Assembly (NCBI RefSeq): GCF_018619335.1
Contig: NZ_JAHHDX010000090.1
Span: 62,001-126,000, forward strand
Origin: Alteromonas sp. ALT199
GTDB taxonomy: Bacteria > Pseudomonadota > Gammaproteobacteria > Enterobacterales > Alteromonadaceae
Reading direction: 5' to 3'
Length of the DNA: 64,000 bases
Each line of letters starts with the position of its first letter. Positions within the stretch are counted from its first letter, which is position 1. Below are positions 33,570 to 41,996 of this stretch, piece by piece. Below the pieces are notes generated by a model, which saw only the letters and a program-made list of their open reading frames with translations, was not told where the DNA came from and made no database searches. The translations under genes and the position numbers were made by a program.

Positions 33570-35195
33570 ATGTTGAAACAGTGGTATCTACTAGTTGCTG
33601 TCTTGCTGTGCACCGCCTGCGTGTCGCAATCAAACCATGAAAATTATGATAATAACAAGTGGCTAGATGAGCCAGCATACCTTCAGGCTCAAGCTATTGC
33701 TAAAGGCGATACTACATCGGCAGAGCTGGTCAGCGGTTATTTAGCTCGTATTAGTGAGTTAGATAAAAAGACAAATAGCGTTTTAGCGCTAAACCCCAAT
33801 GCCTTAGCTGAGGCGAAAGCCATTGATAAACAAGTCGCTAATGGTGCCGCATTAGGCCCGTTAGCCGGTATTCCCATACTTTTGAAGGACAATATTGAAA
33901 GCGCAGAAATGCCCACAACGGCAGGTTCTATGGCGCTAATCAATAACGACACCGGACGAGACGCCTCTATTGTAGCGAAGCTAAAAGCGGCGGGTGCGAT
34001 CATTCTAGGTAAAACGAATTTATCTGAGTGGGCAAATTTTCGCTCGGAATCATCGATAAGTGGTTGGAGTGCAGTAGGGGGCCTAACTCGAAACCCTCAC
34101 ATATTATCGAGAAGTGCTTGTGGTTCGTCGTCTGGCTCGGGCGCAGCGATGTCGCTTCGATTAGCGTCACTTGCCGTAGGTACTGAAACTAATGGCTCTA
34201 TAATCTGCCCAGCATCTATTAACGGTGTAGTGGGTTTTAAGCCAACCGTTGGTTTACTTTCAAGAACGCATATTGTGCCCATTTCTTTCAGCCAAGATAC
34301 GGCTGGACCAATGACCTCAAACGTTCAAGACGTATGGCTAATGACAGCGGTTATGGCTGGCGAAGATGCAAGCGATAGTGCTACTGAAAAAGCCGCTTCT
34401 TACCGCCCCGACATACCTTCATCAGAAATGCTTGCTACAGATTTAAAGGGCAAACGCATTGGTGTTGTCAGGTATCGCCAAGGCGACAACCCTCACGTAC
34501 TAGAGGTCTACGAAAGTGCACTAAACCAGTTAAAAGCATCGGGTGCTACGCTGGTAGATATTAGCGACTTTTCTCAGCCTGATTCCTTTTGGGCCGACTC
34601 TTACAATGTTTTACTGAGTGAGTTCCATCATAGTATCAACGAATATTTGTCGGGGTCGCCGGCAGAGATCCCTGCAAGAAACTTATCTGAGCTTATTGCT
34701 TTCAACAACAAAACCGAGCGAGAGTTGGCGTTATTCAACCAAGATATTTTTGCAAAGTCGCTAGCGTCGGCGCCTATTGATAGTGAAGCGTATCAAAGCG
34801 CCCTTCGCCTTATTCAAGATACAGCGGGTAAAAATGGTATTGATGCATTATTAGCAAGGCATAACGTTGATGTGTTAGTTGCACCTTCTAATAGCCCTGC
34901 GTTTTTAATCGACGGTGTGTATGGCGATCATTCGCCAGCCGGTTTCATTGGTATCGGCTATTTGGCGGCTGTTGCAGGCTATCCGCACCTTACAGTACCA
35001 GCAGGCCAGGTAAGGAACCTCCCTGTGGGAATTAGCTTTATCGGAGGCAAGTGGCAGGATGAAAATGTGCTGAAAATAGGCAAAGTCTTTGAAGCAAAAC
35101 ATGGCTTCTTCATTAAGCCTGGTCTTTTACCAACTCGTTTTGCCAACCCAAGTTTAAAAGGTATTGATGAAGGGGTTCAAGTAACCGCTAAGTAA
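33570..35195 (+). CDS. Amidase-signature family enzyme, probable lipoprotein
   Basis: 541 aa. N-terminus MLKQWYLLVAVLLCTACVSQ looks like a lipoprotein signal (cysteine after TA), giving an envelope-anchored enzyme. Catalytic Ser-cisSer-Lys triad visible: K106 (ILLKDN), the Ser-rich loop ACGSSSGSG (about S186), and nucleophile S210 in TETNGSIICPAS. Family members hydrolyse aliphatic or aryl amides and peptide amides; secreted forms often act on peptide amides. Substrate unknown. GGAAAG lies before the ATG. Confidence 0.85.
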   Translation: MLKQWYLLVAVLLCTACVSQSNHENYDNNKWLDEPAYLQAQAIAKGDTTSAELVSGYLARISELDKKTNSVLALNPNALAEAKAIDKQVANGAALGPLAGIPILLKDNIESAEMPTTAGSMALINNDTGRDASIVAKLKAAGAIILGKTNLSEWANFRSESSISGWSAVGGLTRNPHILSRSACGSSSGSGAAMSLRLASLAVGTETNGSIICPASINGVVGFKPTVGLLSRTHIVPISFSQDTAGPMTSNVQDVWLMTAVMAGEDASDSATEKAASYRPDIPSSEMLATDLKGKRIGVVRYRQGDNPHVLEVYESALNQLKASGATLVDISDFSQPDSFWADSYNVLLSEFHHSINEYLSGSPAEIPARNLSELIAFNNKTERELALFNQDIFAKSLASAPIDSEAYQSALRLIQDTAGKNGIDALLARHNVDVLVAPSNSPAFLIDGVYGDHSPAGFIGIGYLAAVAGYPHLTVPAGQVRNLPVGISFIGGKWQDENVLKIGKVFEAKHGFFIKPGLLPTRFANPSLKGIDEGVQVTAK

Positions 35196-35261
35196 TGATA
35201 ATTACCTGTAATTTAAAACCTATTAAAAGATGTTTAAACGAGTAAGCCTTGATGATTAAAG

Positions 35262-35304
35262 TGACTCAAATTAATTGAACATTTCAGTTAATGAGAGTCA
35301 TTTT
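35262..35304 (+). terminator. Probable terminator after the amidase gene
   Basis: TGACTC and a 10-bp AT-rich inner stem (with one G-T pair) closed by a CAT loop, then GAGTCA and TTTTAT. A two-base internal mismatch interrupts the stem. The remaining bases to 35541 hold no gene and presumably the promoter of the next operon. Confidence 0.6.
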
Positions 35305-35541
35305 ATGTTCTGCCCACAATTTTTAAAAATAAGTTAAAAAAATGTGGTCAAATTTTGCTCAATGTGTAAAGCTGACGCTTGTTGACTTGAACGGTACGTC
35401 TTTTCAGACAGCCAAATTACGGACATTGTTCATTGCCTGAATTCGCTTGGCGAGAAGAAGTGTAGTGGAGAGGTCAACACATATAAATAATGACTGCGGT
35501 AAATGTCACTTCATTCTAGATTATCACTATGGAGGTGTATT

Positions 35542-36288
35542 ATGTCTGGAACTTCTGAAGCAGTTACTCAGGCCACGAGACTAAGCGAAATTGGATTCCC
35601 TGAATTTACGACTAAACTCATAACCGATGTGTTTGACGCATTAATCTCTAGCAACATCCGCCAAACCGAAGCTTATATTGAGCTTCTCCAACAAACTAGC
35701 AAATCGCTTACTTCCTTTATCAATGACACCAAAGACGATATTAGTGGTGACATGATTTTAGATTTTTTAGCTCGTGCGTTACCCGCTGATGTGGACGATC
35801 AAGAGAAGGTTACCGCTGTTGAAAATAACGGAGGAAACGCCACATTAGATCAAGCTCAAGCTAATGCGTTAAATGAAGCACTCGAAACCCCTGCAGAAGC
35901 TGGAGTAGCCGACAATAATCAAGTTGCTGTAGATGGTCAAAACTCGTATGACGCTATTCTAGATGCGGTAGCGAGGCGAATATCGGTGAATAAATACGAC
36001 ATGCTCAAAGAAATGGTCAAGCAAGGAATCTTGCGCTTGGTCATTGAAAATGGCGACATAGAAACGCGTTTAACGTTTACAACCTATGGCTCGTCTTTTA
36101 GCCGAGAAACACAAAACAAATACAACCGCAAAGCGTTTTCTGCACAAGCTCGTGCTAAAACTGGCTCTATTTTATCTCGGTGGGTAAAAGCATCGGCATC
36201 AACTAAGTATTCGAATGTGACAGTAACGACAACGAGTAAAGTTGATCAAGATAGATCGGGCTCAAGAGTAAATATTTTGGTGGTGTGA
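35542..36288 (+). CDS. Unknown protein A of a three-gene operon, paralogous to protein B
   Basis: 248 aa from the ATG at 35542, which has an excellent GGAGGT five bases upstream; a start at 35503 lacks one. No signal peptide or membrane segment: probably cytoplasmic. Residues 13-40 (LSEIGFPEFTTKLITDVF onward) match residues 6-33 of protein B at 15 of 28 positions; residues 154-179 (MLKEMVKQGILRLVIENG onward) match B 144-169 at 9 of 26. Between lies an acidic, Asn/Ala-rich linker. It ends in an Arg/Lys/Ser-rich, beta-predicted tail. I do not recognise the family; layout faintly recalls DUF2589 proteins, from memory. Confidence 0.8.
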   Translation: MSGTSEAVTQATRLSEIGFPEFTTKLITDVFDALISSNIRQTEAYIELLQQTSKSLTSFINDTKDDISGDMILDFLARALPADVDDQEKVTAVENNGGNATLDQAQANALNEALETPAEAGVADNNQVAVDGQNSYDAILDAVARRISVNKYDMLKEMVKQGILRLVIENGDIETRLTFTTYGSSFSRETQNKYNRKAFSAQARAKTGSILSRWVKASASTKYSNVTVTTTSKVDQDRSGSRVNILVV

Positions 36289-36340
36289 AAATTAACTTCC
36301 GCACCGATTATTTACCGCTAGATCAGTAAGGAAACGCGCC

Positions 36341-37102
36341 ATGTCAAACTCAGCTCTTAATGAGCTGGGTTTTGCCGAGTTTGTGGCAAAGCTCATCTCA
36401 GATACGTTTGGTGCGGTTCTCGCATCGCAAATCGAACAACAAGATAAAATATCAGAACTAAGCAGTTTATTGTCACTTTCAGACGACGAGTATGTTGCAA
36501 TATGTATGCAAGACGATGAACTTGTTTTCCAATTAGAAGAGAACCTTAAACAGCGTTATCCGTTTGATAGCGATACAGAGCATGCGGTCTACAAGGGCGC
36601 ACCGTATCAAGCACCGACGCAGCAAAAAGAAGAGTCCCCCCCATTTTTTAAAGACCTAGGAATTTCACTAGAGGAAAAACAGGACTTTTCAGGCAAAAAA
36701 TTAACCGAAGAAGGAGCAAAGAAAGTAAAAATAGCTGTCATGCTAACCATTGCGCAAAAACAACGGCAATTACTCTCTGATGTGTTGGTAAACGGCATTC
36801 CTAAGCTATCTGTCGATCATGGTAAGATCAACGCTAAGCTCACTTTTAGCATGAAGGACGATGGCTCACAGGATGAGGGGGAAGAGAGCAACTCAGCACC
36901 AAGCAGAAACGCAATAATAACCAGAAACACCGCTCTGAGCAATTTGTCAGTAGCCAACCGATTTGCCGGGGTTATCGATACGTCAAAACTGACAAAAACA
37001 AGGCTTAACATTACACCTGCGAGTAATCGCGCACCGCAAGACGCACAAAGTAGTGCAAACATCTACAGCGAAGTAGAAATTCACTTCAAGTCAATTTTAT
37101 GA
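36341..37102 (+). CDS. Unknown protein B of a three-gene operon, paralogous to protein A
   Basis: 253 aa, 52 bases after protein A. Shares the N-terminal block (LNELGFAEFVAKLISDTF) and the mid-C-terminal block (NGIPKLSVDHGKINAKLTF) with protein A. The middle is different: acidic and Pro/Gln-rich (YKGAPYQAPTQQKEESPPFF). The final ten residues (YSEVEIHFKSIL) look like a beta strand, as does the end of A. No signal peptide or transmembrane helix. The last codons overlap the start of protein C (ATGA), so B and C are translationally coupled. Function unknown. Confidence 0.8.
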   Translation: MSNSALNELGFAEFVAKLISDTFGAVLASQIEQQDKISELSSLLSLSDDEYVAICMQDDELVFQLEENLKQRYPFDSDTEHAVYKGAPYQAPTQQKEESPPFFKDLGISLEEKQDFSGKKLTEEGAKKVKIAVMLTIAQKQRQLLSDVLVNGIPKLSVDHGKINAKLTFSMKDDGSQDEGEESNSAPSRNAIITRNTALSNLSVANRFAGVIDTSKLTKTRLNITPASNRAPQDAQSSANIYSEVEIHFKSIL

Positions 37103-37737
37103 CCACTCATACTGACGTACAGAGCTTAATTTGGCTTATACATGCTGAAATGGCGACGGTGATGAATACCATAGCCGATCAGCAGTCTAGTTTCGGAGTA
37201 GATAGTATACGAGTAAGAATGGGCCAGCTAACTGATGATGAAAGTAATAGTGAAGCCGCACCTCAACTTGATCTCCAACGCTACCCGCTTGCACAAGATG
37301 GGTGGTTACTAGACGTCCATTATAATGTTCACTCTATGGACACACCATTGGTGCCAGCGAAGTGGAAAGGCTTAAAAAGCGATATTGAGGTCATTCGCCT
37401 TCAAGGCGTTGGTCCACAACTTACCAAGCGACTGCACAAGTTGCAGATCTTTACCATCGATGAACTTAGTCGTATGAAAGCTGAATTAGTCAAGGCTCAC
37501 GAACTGAGGCCGTATCAAACGATAGCTGCATTAGCCTTATCGTTGCCGCCCATCGCATTAACTTCTGAAATCCTTAAAAACTCGCCGCTATGGTTAATTG
37601 ACAATGAATCATGGTTAAGCACACAAGTGTCTTCAAAAAGTCATATCCGCGCACTTTCTACTTGGCTGCGGCAGTTAGAGGTCTGTTTGGATAATAAGTG
37701 GCTATCTCGTGTTTCGCTGAACGAAATTGTTGGTTGA
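37099..37737 (+). CDS. Unknown protein C of a three-gene operon, helix-hairpin-helix-like
   Basis: 212 aa. Starts within the last codons of protein B (four-base ATGA overlap). Around residues 96-125 the stretch VIRLQGVGPQLTKRLHKLQI resembles a helix-hairpin-helix, with the GVGP turn at about 105-108 and the continuation FTIDELSRM, a common DNA- or protein-binding element. The C-terminal third is helical and Trp-containing. No signal peptide or catalytic motif seen. Function unknown; the HhH call is a pattern match only. Confidence 0.75.
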   Translation: MTTHTDVQSLIWLIHAEMATVMNTIADQQSSFGVDSIRVRMGQLTDDESNSEAAPQLDLQRYPLAQDGWLLDVHYNVHSMDTPLVPAKWKGLKSDIEVIRLQGVGPQLTKRLHKLQIFTIDELSRMKAELVKAHELRPYQTIAALALSLPPIALTSEILKNSPLWLIDNESWLSTQVSSKSHIRALSTWLRQLEVCLDNKWLSRVSLNEIVG

Positions 37738-37862
37738 ATACGCCCAATGTTTTTAGTTCAGCGAAAAATAGTCATCATTTCATTTTGTTGGTCACCACAC
37801 ACGATAGATAGGCGGCCTTGGCTAGCGTAGGTGCTGATACTTACACAACTGTATATAACTTA

Positions 37863-37892
37863 ACAAAACGCCCGACTAACAATAGACGGGCG
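37863..37892 (-). terminator. Intrinsic terminator of the HiPIP gene
   Basis: Minus strand: CGCCCG, 12-nt loop, CGGGCG, then TTTTGTT. About 30 bases after the HiPIP stop. Confidence 0.75.
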
Positions 37893-37920
37893 CTAAGTGA
37901 AGTTGCAATGACTATGGTTG

Positions 37921-38214
37921 TTAACCTGGTTTTTTAACCCAAGCACTACACCAGCCATCAGCATTAACTAGCTTGTTAGGGAAAATGTTACAAGGGCGAT
38001 ATTGTTCGCCATCGGCTCCCTGCACATACATGCAGTTTGAACATTTTGCACCTTCAACGGTTGATGATGGTGTGTAATTTAATGCTTTCGCAGTTGGGTC
38101 ATCAGCGCTCAATTGTTCTTGAGCTTGTGCACGTAGCGCTACACCACCTAATGTAAGACCGATAACTGTAGAGCCCGACAGTTTTAAAAAGTCACGGCGA
38201 TTTACAGATTTCAT
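37921..38214 (-). CDS. High-potential iron-sulfur protein (HiPIP)
   Basis: 97 aa from an ATG with TAAGGAG upstream; a start at 38262 would add 16 residues ahead of the Tat signal. Twin-arginine motif NRRDFLKLSG, cleavage about RAQAQE, so it is exported folded with its cluster. Four cysteines C58-x2-C61-x13-C75-x13-C89 match the [4Fe-4S] pattern of HiPIPs. It carries electrons in the periplasm; the partner is unknown. No oxidase or photosynthetic gene is adjacent. It is followed by its own terminator. Confidence 0.9.
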   Translation of the reverse strand: MKSVNRRDFLKLSGSTVIGLTLGGVALRAQAQEQLSADDPTAKALNYTPSSTVEGAKCSNCMYVQGADGEQYRPCNIFPNKLVNADGWCSAWVKKPG

Positions 38215-39250: not shown

Positions 39251-39445
39251 ATTTCATTGCCTTATTAATCATGAATAGTGTTTATTACGTAATGCTAAGG
39301 CGAGTGGATTTTCTTTAGCAAAAACTCCGTTGCTTATGAGAAGAACGCGCTGAGGTAATCGCAATAGCTGTGGCCATTTTTAAATGAAAATCTTGATGAT
39401 TAGCCCTAATAAACAGCAGCAAGGTGAATGAATAGAGGTGATGTT

Positions 39446-39733
39446 GTGGCAAATAAAGTAGGAAACTGCCCGTGTTGTAATAGAGAAACACGCCTGACCT
39501 ATCATCATCTTATCCCGAAAAAAATGCACCGACGCACCTATTTCAAAAAGCACTTCAGCAAAGCCGAACTTCAAAACGGTATTTATATTTGCAGACAGTG
39601 CCATAGCGGCATACACCGCTTTTATGATGAGATGACATTGGCCAAGCACTACTTCAATTTACAACGTTTACTAGATGACGAGCAGCTTTCAACGTTCTTT
39701 CAGTGGGTGTCTAAACAGCGAGTACGTGTTTAG
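39446..39733 (+). CDS. Small HNH-type nuclease-like protein
   Basis: About 95 aa from a GTG at 39446, which has GAGG at good spacing; an ATG at 39428 is in frame but its AAGG is only three bases away. Motifs: NCPCCNRE (zinc pair), TYHHLIPKKMHRR (HNH histidines), and YICRQCHSGIHRF (second zinc pair plus HNH His). This is the treble-clef nuclease fold found in small stand-alone HNH proteins. Role unknown; the next gene is also a nuclease, but nothing shows they work together. Confidence 0.75.
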   Translation: MANKVGNCPCCNRETRLTYHHLIPKKMHRRTYFKKHFSKAELQNGIYICRQCHSGIHRFYDEMTLAKHYFNLQRLLDDEQLSTFFQWVSKQRVRV

Positions 39734-39851: not shown

Positions 39852-41996
39852 ATGCGAAAAGATTTACCGCCACGTTATTACCTTACACATTTTCACGAGT
39901 TTCTAGCATTTTTTGAAGGTGCTAATAGTATGCTTCTAAGCAATGAGGCTGCAGACTTTGTTGAGCGCTTTAAATCGTTAGATGATGACAAGCAATGTAT
40001 TGTTGTGCGCGCTGCAAATCGCAAGTACGCGGTAATCGACAGAACACAGTTTAATTACCACGAAATTACCGAACCCCAAGCGCAAATAGACTGGCTTATA
40101 AAACACGGTTGGTTTGGAGATATAACACACGCTACGCTTAACGATATCGCTGGCGTGTTAACTAAAAACGCTCTGCTTACACTTCTTGCTGAATACGGCA
40201 GTATTCAAGGTCTCGCTTCGCTGACCAAGCCTAAACTCGTTACCTTACTTAATAAGCACATCACTGTAAAAGGCTGGCCTGAGGGCTTCTCGCTGAATAG
40301 CTATTTGGTGTGTTTATTTGACAATGCGCTTCGCTACTTGCTGTTTATCTACTTTGGCAATACCAAAAGCCGATTAAATCAGTTTTCTATGCGTGACTTG
40401 GGAGTAATGAGAACACGCTCTGATTCGGTAACCGATACCGCGCGTTTTGAAACTAAAAGCGACGCAGAAGCGTCTTGGTTTTACGCTAACCACTACAGCC
40501 AGTTAGCTTTTTATAACGACGATATGTTGTTCGCTATAGCAGAAGGCGAGCTACCTTCAACTGAAGGTGTGTCAGCCAGTTTTTATCGCGACCAGTTGCT
40601 TTACGCGTTAGGACTTAAAATGTTGGCGTTTAACAGGCCCAAAGGGCTAGAGATATTGAAGCTAGCGCAAAGCGACAAGGCAAAAGAAAAGTGGTTAAGG
40701 GAGCGCTATAAAGACGGAAATGGAGATGACGTTAAGCAAGTACTTGAAGACATTATCGATAATCCTCAGTCGGATACGTTACTAGCATTTGCAGAGGATT
40801 TTTATGCCCGTAAGTATAACAAAAAACGCACCAGTACCGTTACCGATATGCTTCGAAGTGCCAGTCGTACATTGGATATCGATGTAAGCCAAAATCAACA
40901 GGTAGAGCGCGGCGTTTTGGCGCATTATGCGCGGCATGGCATAGAGGGCTGGCGCACGGAAAACCGATTGTGGCGTAGTTTGTTTGGTCTTACTTTTTGG
41001 AAGCAACTTTACGAAGAAGATACGCTGGTTACGGAGTTTGATCGAAGGCCGTTATCGCTTAAACAGAATAACTTTTACGCAAAGTTTGAACAAAGTATTG
41101 AAGCATTGCTGCTTGCCCTTGATAGCAAAGAGAAACTGCGCTTTCACATACATAAAATGGCCACAATGCACTACGGCAAAGTGAACAGCCTGTTTATGTG
41201 GTCAAGCCATTTGCTTACGCCTTTAGAAGCCCTAATTGAGCACGGTTCACTAGATAGTATCTACGCTTTACTTCGCATGATGTGCAAAGACTTTGAAAGC
41301 CTTAGAGATGGTTTTCCTGACATTATGGTGTTCGACGGTACGCTTCGCTTTGAAGAGATTAAAGCGCCAGGCGATCAGCTTCGCCGCAACCAGCTGGTTT
41401 CTATTCAACGTCTGCAGCAAGCCGGGTTTGACGTTGCGGTGACAACAGTGAAATGGGTGCGGGACCCAGCCCAACCCTATGTGGTGGTAGATATTGAGAC
41501 CACAGGCGGAAACAACAGTTATAACCGCATAACAGAAATAGGTATGGTTAAACTTATTGGCGGTAAAGAGGTAGACAGGTTTCAAACCTTATTAAATCCG
41601 CAGCGTAGAATTCCTAGCAATATTACCCGCCTTACCGGTATTTCGGATGACATGGTTGCGGACGCACCGCTTTTCGCAGAAATAGCAGAGCAGGTGGCAA
41701 GCTTCACCGACGACGCGGTGTTTGTAGCGCACAATGTGAATTTTGATTATGGGTTCATTAAGCAAGAGTTTGCTCGTTTAGAGCAAAACTTCAGACGCCC
41801 TAAAATGTGCACTGTTCGAGAAATGCGGCGCACTTATCCGGGGCTCCCGTCTTATTCATTAGCAAACCTAACAAAGCATTTTCACATTGAGATGGAGCAA
41901 CATCACCGAGCGCTAAGTGATGCCAAGGCTGCTGCAGAACTATTGAAGCTAGCGTTTGAGAAAGATGATGAATTAACGGGTTTAGCTACCAATTAA
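39852..41996 (+). CDS. FAN1-type VRR-NUC nuclease fused to a DEDDh exonuclease
   Basis: 714 aa. Residues 1-530 have the FAN1 layout: helical N-terminal part, then a VRR-NUC active site FPDIMVF (D490), EEIKAPGD (E502, K504) and Q514, a PD-(D/E)xK set. FAN1 enzymes usually have EVKGP; here it is EIKAP. Residues 540-705 form a complete DEDDh proofreading-type exonuclease: VVDIETTGG (D547, E549), FDYGF (D632), HHRALSDAKAA (H685, D690), like DnaQ. Both active sites look intact. FAN1 acts on branched DNA and interstrand crosslinks; the fusion adds a 3'-5' exonuclease. Monocistronic. Confidence 0.85.
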   Translation: MRKDLPPRYYLTHFHEFLAFFEGANSMLLSNEAADFVERFKSLDDDKQCIVVRAANRKYAVIDRTQFNYHEITEPQAQIDWLIKHGWFGDITHATLNDIAGVLTKNALLTLLAEYGSIQGLASLTKPKLVTLLNKHITVKGWPEGFSLNSYLVCLFDNALRYLLFIYFGNTKSRLNQFSMRDLGVMRTRSDSVTDTARFETKSDAEASWFYANHYSQLAFYNDDMLFAIAEGELPSTEGVSASFYRDQLLYALGLKMLAFNRPKGLEILKLAQSDKAKEKWLRERYKDGNGDDVKQVLEDIIDNPQSDTLLAFAEDFYARKYNKKRTSTVTDMLRSASRTLDIDVSQNQQVERGVLAHYARHGIEGWRTENRLWRSLFGLTFWKQLYEEDTLVTEFDRRPLSLKQNNFYAKFEQSIEALLLALDSKEKLRFHIHKMATMHYGKVNSLFMWSSHLLTPLEALIEHGSLDSIYALLRMMCKDFESLRDGFPDIMVFDGTLRFEEIKAPGDQLRRNQLVSIQRLQQAGFDVAVTTVKWVRDPAQPYVVVDIETTGGNNSYNRITEIGMVKLIGGKEVDRFQTLLNPQRRIPSNITRLTGISDDMVADAPLFAEIAEQVASFTDDAVFVAHNVNFDYGFIKQEFARLEQNFRRPKMCTVREMRRTYPGLPSYSLANLTKHFHIEMEQHHRALSDAKAAAELLKLAFEKDDELTGLATN

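Follow-up and report, generated by a model that had tools for sequence, protein, structure and literature searches.

Which system is encoded by the three adjacent genes, here called A, B and C, that lie in a 64,000-nucleotide stretch of Alteromonas sp. ALT199 (contig NZ_JAHHDX010000090.1, positions 62,001 to 126,000; hereafter the window)? The first-pass annotation had described three open reading frames (ORFs), two diverged paralogues and a helix-hairpin-helix (HhH)-like partner, that might make up a complex. All three ORFs were present, in one direction on the forward strand. The paralogous pair with its partner was supported, since the triad recurs across phyla with congruent distances among its members, and a complex is plausible. 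We propose that A, B and C are very probably three subunits of one soluble cytosolic hetero-oligomer. Our reading of the whole, namely that this hetero-oligomer is the most compact member of a new class of operons associated with cell-wall lysis, is tentative and falls a little short of an even chance.

By sequence comparison it is certain that A and B are paralogues. BLASTP of A against B gave an E value of 5e-8, and the full-length alignment scored 48.9 bits, whereas the top score among 1000 shuffles of B was 28.1. Profile-profile comparison, which had been named beforehand as the test of this relationship, recovered it almost end to end (21 A and 22 B sequences; probability 99.6, E 1.6e-24, 229 columns), and homology over the full length was borne out. 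The two conserved blocks recognised earlier by eye are both real, with identities counted exactly (15 of 28 and 9 of 26), but the profile alignment brings the total to three. The third block, at the C-terminus, reads F[KR]TDYLPL in type I relatives (defined below) and F[KR][ST]DY.PL in the scanned relatives, where it is conserved because the scan demanded that peptide; B carries a shorter form, EVEIHFKS. No entry above threshold was found for A or B in Pfam, NCBIfam, PHROGs, PADLOC or the PDB, the best NCBIfam match of a type I A being TraN (E 0.0047; 15.5 bits, cut-off 605), and the earlier statement that no named system has this shape holds for these collections.

We then asked how far the three genes travel together. 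One genome per species was scanned for the peptide F[KR][ST]DY[LFV][PK]L[DN] (84,980 species), which yielded 132 relatives, and the best 80 were kept, corresponding to 79 loci (L012-L090). By our reading these comprise 21 type I, 21 type II and 36 type III loci, with one, L089, unclear. Six-frame profiles placed A, B and C adjacent, in this order and on one strand in 20 of the 21 type I loci (L012-L032), so that their co-occurrence, also set in advance as a test, was found; L021, from a deltaproteobacterium, had A and B and no match to C. The C profile was trained on the gene after B in 16 loci, 15 of which are among the 20. The five further C proteins were found by the profile (four in Knoellia at E of about 1e-6, and that of L032 at 3.8e-15), and 13 of the 15 training-locus C proteins also matched a profile built from the C proteins of the window, of the same-genus genome G018 and of Tolypothrix. 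According to record titles, the type I hosts are Kangiella, Pleionea, other Gammaproteobacteria, Bacteroidetes, Nitrospirae, Knoellia and the deltaproteobacterium of L021, and the compact triad spans Pseudomonadota, Bacteroidota, Nitrospirota and Actinomycetota. A tblastn search picked up distant relatives on plasmids of Burkholderia and of the Tolypothrix type, but no relative in phages.

The larger operon types keep A-type subunits (one or four) together with C. Type II operons contain a subtilase, c1 (about 615 amino acids (aa)), one A (about 345 aa), c5 (about 700 aa), c10 (about 95 aa) and C, mostly with large payload genes in addition; their hosts are Chitinophaga, Fulvivirga, Brocadia, Chloroflexota and Tolypothrix, and in the last an insertion sequence transposase stands in place of the payload after C. 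Type III operons, found in Burkholderia, Aliikangiella, Erythrobacter, Cellulomonas and others, have the order payload, A1, c9 (about 90 aa), C, subtilase, c1, c7 (about 350 aa), A2, A3, a short c1 and A4. Some ORFs of GC-rich loci were masked by antisense calls, and six-frame profiles recovered the A copies there. Upstream of the Burkholderia type III operon (L114:29546-31077) we also observed a DUF3467 gene and a gene for a sigma-54-dependent regulator, a possible control point.

Copy number and descent within the family were regular. Among 35 genomes chosen from the 79 loci, the whole genome held two A/B copies in all nine of type I, one in all 16 of type II and four in all ten of type III. 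In a tree of 86 chosen rows, built by a quick method and with long branches flagged by the tool, the classes IA, IB, II and III1-III4 each formed one clade (6 changes, the minimum, versus a shuffled mean of 57), and all A-class profiles matched one another at a probability of at least 98. Pairwise distances across 19 type I loci were correlated (A-B 0.845, A-C 0.798, B-C 0.955; 0 of 2000 permutations as high), which, with near relatives included, is a sign of common inheritance and not of contact. For C, the type I proteins aligned with those of types II and III over 119 collinear columns at a probability of 56.8, which fell to 22.8 when query and template were exchanged, and homology across the operon types is for this reason likely rather than proved. 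A and B may represent an old duplicated pair with fixed but different roles. Copy number and gene order in the A/B family are rigid, and record titles together with tree labels place it in at least ten phyla even in this small sample.

The link to cell-wall lysis comes from the larger operons, in which the A/B family adjoins the subtilase, function-unassigned proteins and multidomain lysozyme, amidase, M15 and C70 hydrolases. Of the 22 loci that have c5, 14 were scanned for type II payloads (all but L007 and seven others), and ten of these 14 had a cell-wall hydrolase domain above the Pfam cut-off downstream of C (L034, L041, L062, about 2.8 kb past C in this case, L064, L074, L077, L081, L083, L087 and L088). 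No such domain was found after C in L075, or in L051, L056 and L086, where one gene only was scanned. The domains were Phage_lysozyme, Glucosaminidase, Amidase_2, M15_4, M15_3, VanY and Extensin-like, in several cases together with C70. In type III, the gene before A1 contained a C70 papain-like domain in eight of nine chosen loci (all but L079); the complete Burkholderia payload, of 1254 aa, combines Amidase_2, C92 and C70, and the remaining eight run off the edge of the locus. Among type I loci, L012 adjoins Amidase_3 (E 7.8e-28), L016 and L026 adjoin an M15_4 match below the cut-off (19-20 bits, cut-off 25), and L020 has a homologue without a Pfam match.

By a crude hydropathy rule, an N-terminal hydrophobic stretch was seen in none of 123 A/B proteins, 49 C proteins, 38 subtilases or 36 proteins of the payload clusters c11, c12, c14 and c21, and in one of 56 c1 proteins; among other genes it was seen in 82 of 194. 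Membrane-like stretches were present in 10 of 38 subtilases, 4 of 18 c7 and 6 of 56 c1 proteins. The cell-wall hydrolases of the larger operons, like their subtilase, would be cytosolic and have no visible exit, which raises the question of how and why they are deployed. Separately, a Nitrospirae genome carries a gene for Peptidase_C13 (legumain/caspase-like) upstream of its triad (L025:8407-9261).

A structure model of the A relative from L012 had a mean predicted local distance difference test (pLDDT) score of 73, with helices at residues 3-79 and 137-162 and strands at 172-184 and 241-254. The loop between the strands (residues 186-239, hereafter the hairpin) had a pLDDT below 50, and many of its positions are near-invariant among type IA proteins. 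Compared with composition shuffles, the hairpin showed beta-strand alternation (mean z 2.25, with positive values for 18 of the 21 type IA sequences), with a mean z of -1.35 for alpha periodicity. The hairpin of A probably folds on a partner subunit. Foldseek against the PDB returned 18 rows for the model, none significant (best E 0.69). Among them were 8f2r_D, from the human CCC complex, and the COMMD-like 9q6a_A. COMMD-type proteins have a helical N-domain and a beta hairpin and form hetero-oligomers of paralogues; a relationship of A to them was set aside, as the Foldseek rows were non-significant (E 3.4 and 9.3, probability 0.02 and 0.01), and a literature search for a bacterial COMMD study, judged at the level of search results, gave nothing relevant.

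The second half of C probably contains an HhH domain. Its model had a confident helical half (10-residue means of 83-96, residues 91-210) after a weak N-terminal half. Among the first 31 Foldseek rows for it, 25 were DNA polymerases of the DinB/iota type (probability up to 0.94); others were mitoribosomal proteins (up to 0.97) and a protein-bound NusA AR2, its partner being SuhB (6ib8_C, target template modelling score 0.61). No row had an E value below 0.45, hence none at 0.001. The part of the polymerases that C resembles is presumably their HhH domain, which agrees with weak matches of C to hidden Markov models of HHH_5 (14.4 bits, cut-off 27) and polymerase IV, all below cut-off. These HhH-type domains and the second half of C are likely to have the same fold, but the sequence matches remain below cut-off and C, unlike them, has an N-terminal region and partners of its own. 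The GVGP segment noted earlier was confirmed, from residue 103; across type I C proteins GVGP is not kept, and GVG or GIG occurs in part of them.

Within the genus, A-B-C behaves as a mobile cassette, and the site that it occupies in the window is empty in relatives. Of the 36 same-genus genomes, only G018 and the window's own contain A and C, and no further genome among the 60 searched does. A stretch of 2,404 bp, which holds only A, B, C and upstream DNA, is 85% identical in G018. There it lies at 1.45 Mb, whereas the G018 copies of the genes that flank it in the window, an amidase (Pfam Amidase) and a high-potential iron-sulphur protein, lie 119 bp apart at 4.36 Mb. The flanking genes are separated by 148, 148 and 202 bp in G023, G027 and G035, and by no more than 324 bp in 17 of the 35 other genomes of the genus, including G018, when long matches for both are required. 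Counting shorter matches, they are no more than 405 bp apart in 25 of 35, and one or both were not found in the other ten. No genus genome searched, except that of the window, had the triad between these two genes. Because the cassette is 85% identical to that of G018 and the flanks are 70% and 76% identical, sequence identity suggests that the cassette was exchanged after the species split. Seven window neighbours were scanned and none encoded a transposase, and no convincing repeats were found at the cassette ends.

The genes of the cassette are under purifying selection, the frameshift in A aside, as the ratio of nonsynonymous to synonymous substitution rates against the G018 copy was 0.029 for A (243 codons before the frameshift), 0.067 for B and 0.104 for C. 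The GGAGGT earlier assigned to A was confirmed (Table 1), but the extent of the gene was revised at both ends. Its start is most likely the ATG at 35542, which lies 11 bases past the first base of GGAGGT, and not 35503. At the other end, A is frameshifted when judged against the intact G018 copy, which continues into VNIFGGVKINFRTDYLPLDQ, matching the end of B; the protein encoded in the window lacks the third conserved block for this reason, and the coding sequence of the block survives in another frame. Since the window stems from a draft of 178 contigs, the frameshift could be either genuine or introduced by the assembly. The ATGA by which B and C had been said to overlap was located at 37099-37102.

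Table 1 Features of the three-gene cassette, in window coordinates
Feature	Position	Strand	Remarks
Gene A	35542..36288	+	248 aa in its present state; A/B family, type IA; frameshift-truncated near its end
Gene B	36341..37102	+	253 aa; paralogue of A, type IB
Gene C	37099..37737	+	212 aa; low-confidence N-terminal helix/strand region, then helical HhH-like domain
GGAGGT ribosome-binding site of A	35531..35536	+	
HhH-like segment of C	37387..37485	+	residues 97-129; GVGP at 37405; Pfam HHH_5 below cut-off
Mobile cassette	35343..37746	+	stretch 85% identical to a copy elsewhere in relative G018
Remnant of the third conserved block of A (FGGVKINFRTDYLPLDQ)	~36276..36329	+	different frame from A

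The fixed roles of the paralogues, the strict linkage of the three genes and the interface-like hairpin argue for a hetero-oligomer. A and B would each have a helical N-terminal part, followed by a two-stranded sheet with a long conserved connecting hairpin that probably folds only against a neighbouring subunit, and C would join through its HhH-like domain, a fold able to bind protein (as in NusA AR2) or nucleic acid. Of the three forms that this unnamed operon class takes, the triad would be the smallest; the larger ones also contain two or three large function-unassigned proteins, a subtilase that shows no signal peptide and, at most loci examined, multidomain cell-wall hydrolases or papain-like proteins. 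Because the larger operons carry lytic enzymes, the oligomer might handle such enzymes kept in the cytosol, by storing them, by packing them into a particle or by opening a path for them, and might thus be a cytosolic platform or particle on which they are stored, matured or deployed. A lytic role of the assembly is possible, if slightly less probable than not. The compact form in the window may be a stripped, horizontally moving version that uses few or borrowed enzymes, and it is small enough for direct expression and structure solution.

A more specific version of this proposal is doubtful in its full detail. It holds that the assemblies are an undescribed cytosolic class, with one, two or four position-specific A/B copies and an HhH-like subunit, which would form a particle with a subtilase and modular cell-wall hydrolases in types II and III and a three-gene mobile core in type I, spread between phyla as a unit, be neither evidently phage-derived nor a contractile injection system, and dock or insert the hairpin of A. 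Endolysins and virion lysins of phages share payload domains with the larger operons (Phage_lysozyme, Amidase_2, M15 and Glucosaminidase), but the A/B family was not found in scans of INPHARED phages and IMG/VR. A phage origin was rejected, with no A/B relatives in these two collections and none convincing in PHROGs; the IMG/VR scans used short peptide patterns, which could miss distant relatives. No phage structural or holin domain was found among the operon proteins scanned with Pfam.

Several observations weigh against the proposed operon class and its lytic link. A hydrolase-like neighbour was found in 4 of the 13 type I loci with neighbours listed, from two lineages, and the scan of seven window neighbours turned up no cell-wall hydrolase. 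The export-signal test was a crude hydropathy rule applied to automatically chosen ORF starts, six of the seven c12 payloads entered it without their N-terminus, and membrane-like stretches occur in 11 of 22 c5 proteins. The model of A is of moderate confidence, with the hairpin below 50, and has no significant fold match in the PDB; homology of C between operon types is moderately supported. c1 was not found in 11 type I genomes, in a search that had no positive control, and the frameshift in A could mean that the cassette is decaying here or that the draft assembly is wrong.

Instead of a lytic assembly, the triad could be a small anti-phage or inter-bacterial conflict module, in which A, B and C sense or scaffold and neighbouring proteases, patatins and lytic enzymes kill. 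The distribution is sparse: besides the 2 of 36 same-genus genomes, only the window's own was positive among 369 from the class, and the cassette sits at different sites. Candidate effectors are also found nearby (the Peptidase_C13 of L025, a patatin near L027, L008 and the G018 copy, and the Amidase_3 of L012), a PADLOC model for subtilases was matched by the type II subtilase (E 1.5e-21), and type II C weakly matched BREX PglW (E 0.0019 in PADLOC and 0.0044, far below cut-off, in NCBIfam). However, PADLOC had no match for a type I A, for B and C of the window, or for c1, c5, c7 and c9, and on this basis membership in a known defence system was rejected. No NTPase or nuclease domain was found in the cassette proteins, and the seven window neighbours scanned include no recognised defence gene, though two are nuclease-like. 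We regard this explanation as unlikely.

A distinctly less likely possibility is a cytosolic pore-forming or lysis module, in which the amphipathic hairpin of A would enter the inner membrane as a beta-barrel, so that endolysin-like enzymes reach the wall. The hairpin is conserved yet unfolded in the monomer model and shows the strand alternation described above, and the linked hydrolases have no signal peptide by the hydropathy rule. Against this, no sequence or fold similarity to a pore-former was found, the alternation is absent from 3 of the 21 hairpins, and amphipathic hairpins are equally expected at subunit interfaces.

It is highly improbable that the three proteins form a nucleic-acid-associated regulatory complex with C as its DNA- or RNA-binding subunit. 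The resemblance of the helical half of C to DinB/iota DNA polymerases and the weak HHH_5 and polymerase IV matches point in this direction, but no Foldseek row reached an E value of 0.001 and the list includes the protein-bound NusA AR2, GVGP is not kept among type I C proteins, and the partners in the larger operons are hydrolases and not nucleic-acid enzymes.

That A and B are distant members of DUF2589 (PF11655), the family to whose layout theirs had earlier been likened, is barely credible and was rejected. In its favour, the plan looks similar by eye and DUF2589 is mostly paired (two matches in 9 of the 11 genomes with any, from 3 of 35 and 8 of 398 genomes searched). Against it, Pfam gave no match for A or B at E values up to 10, and hhalign gave probabilities of 7.4 and 0.9 over the full length and at most 12.1 for the C-terminal parts. 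Genome G000 had no PF11655 match. The DUF2589 genes themselves occur as pairs within about 2 kb per locus (L091, L094, L096-L100, L102, L108 and L109), and in several loci lysozyme-, amidase- or GH19-like ORFs were recognised by eye nearby. Like A and B, these are small paralogues, two per locus, with a similar plan and, in some loci, lytic-like neighbours, both judged by eye only; their profiles show no significant similarity to A or B. Literature searches on DUF2589 (which led to a paper on Archaeoglobus transcriptomes) and DUF3467, and on payload-domain combinations, similar clusters and Alteromonas islands, returned nothing on an A-B-C system at the level of search results.

In the surroundings of the cassette, an Rfam search of positions 35000-38000 (E up to 0.5) found no RNA element, and a promoter and terminator scan gave no promoter-like site on the forward strand, with counts no higher than in shuffles. 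Further downstream, a small HNH endonuclease-like gene (39428-39730) directly precedes a FAN1-like gene (39852-41993), whose 714-aa product has FAN1_HTH, VRR_NUC and an RNase_T exonuclease domain. An inverted repeat at 37712-37766, with 15-nucleotide arms that are 93% complementary, spans the end of C and is absent from the terminator listing. A segment of about 70 bp in front of A (35412-35480) has matches of 75-76% identity elsewhere in G018 and G034, and perhaps represents a dispersed element or a shared upstream sequence.

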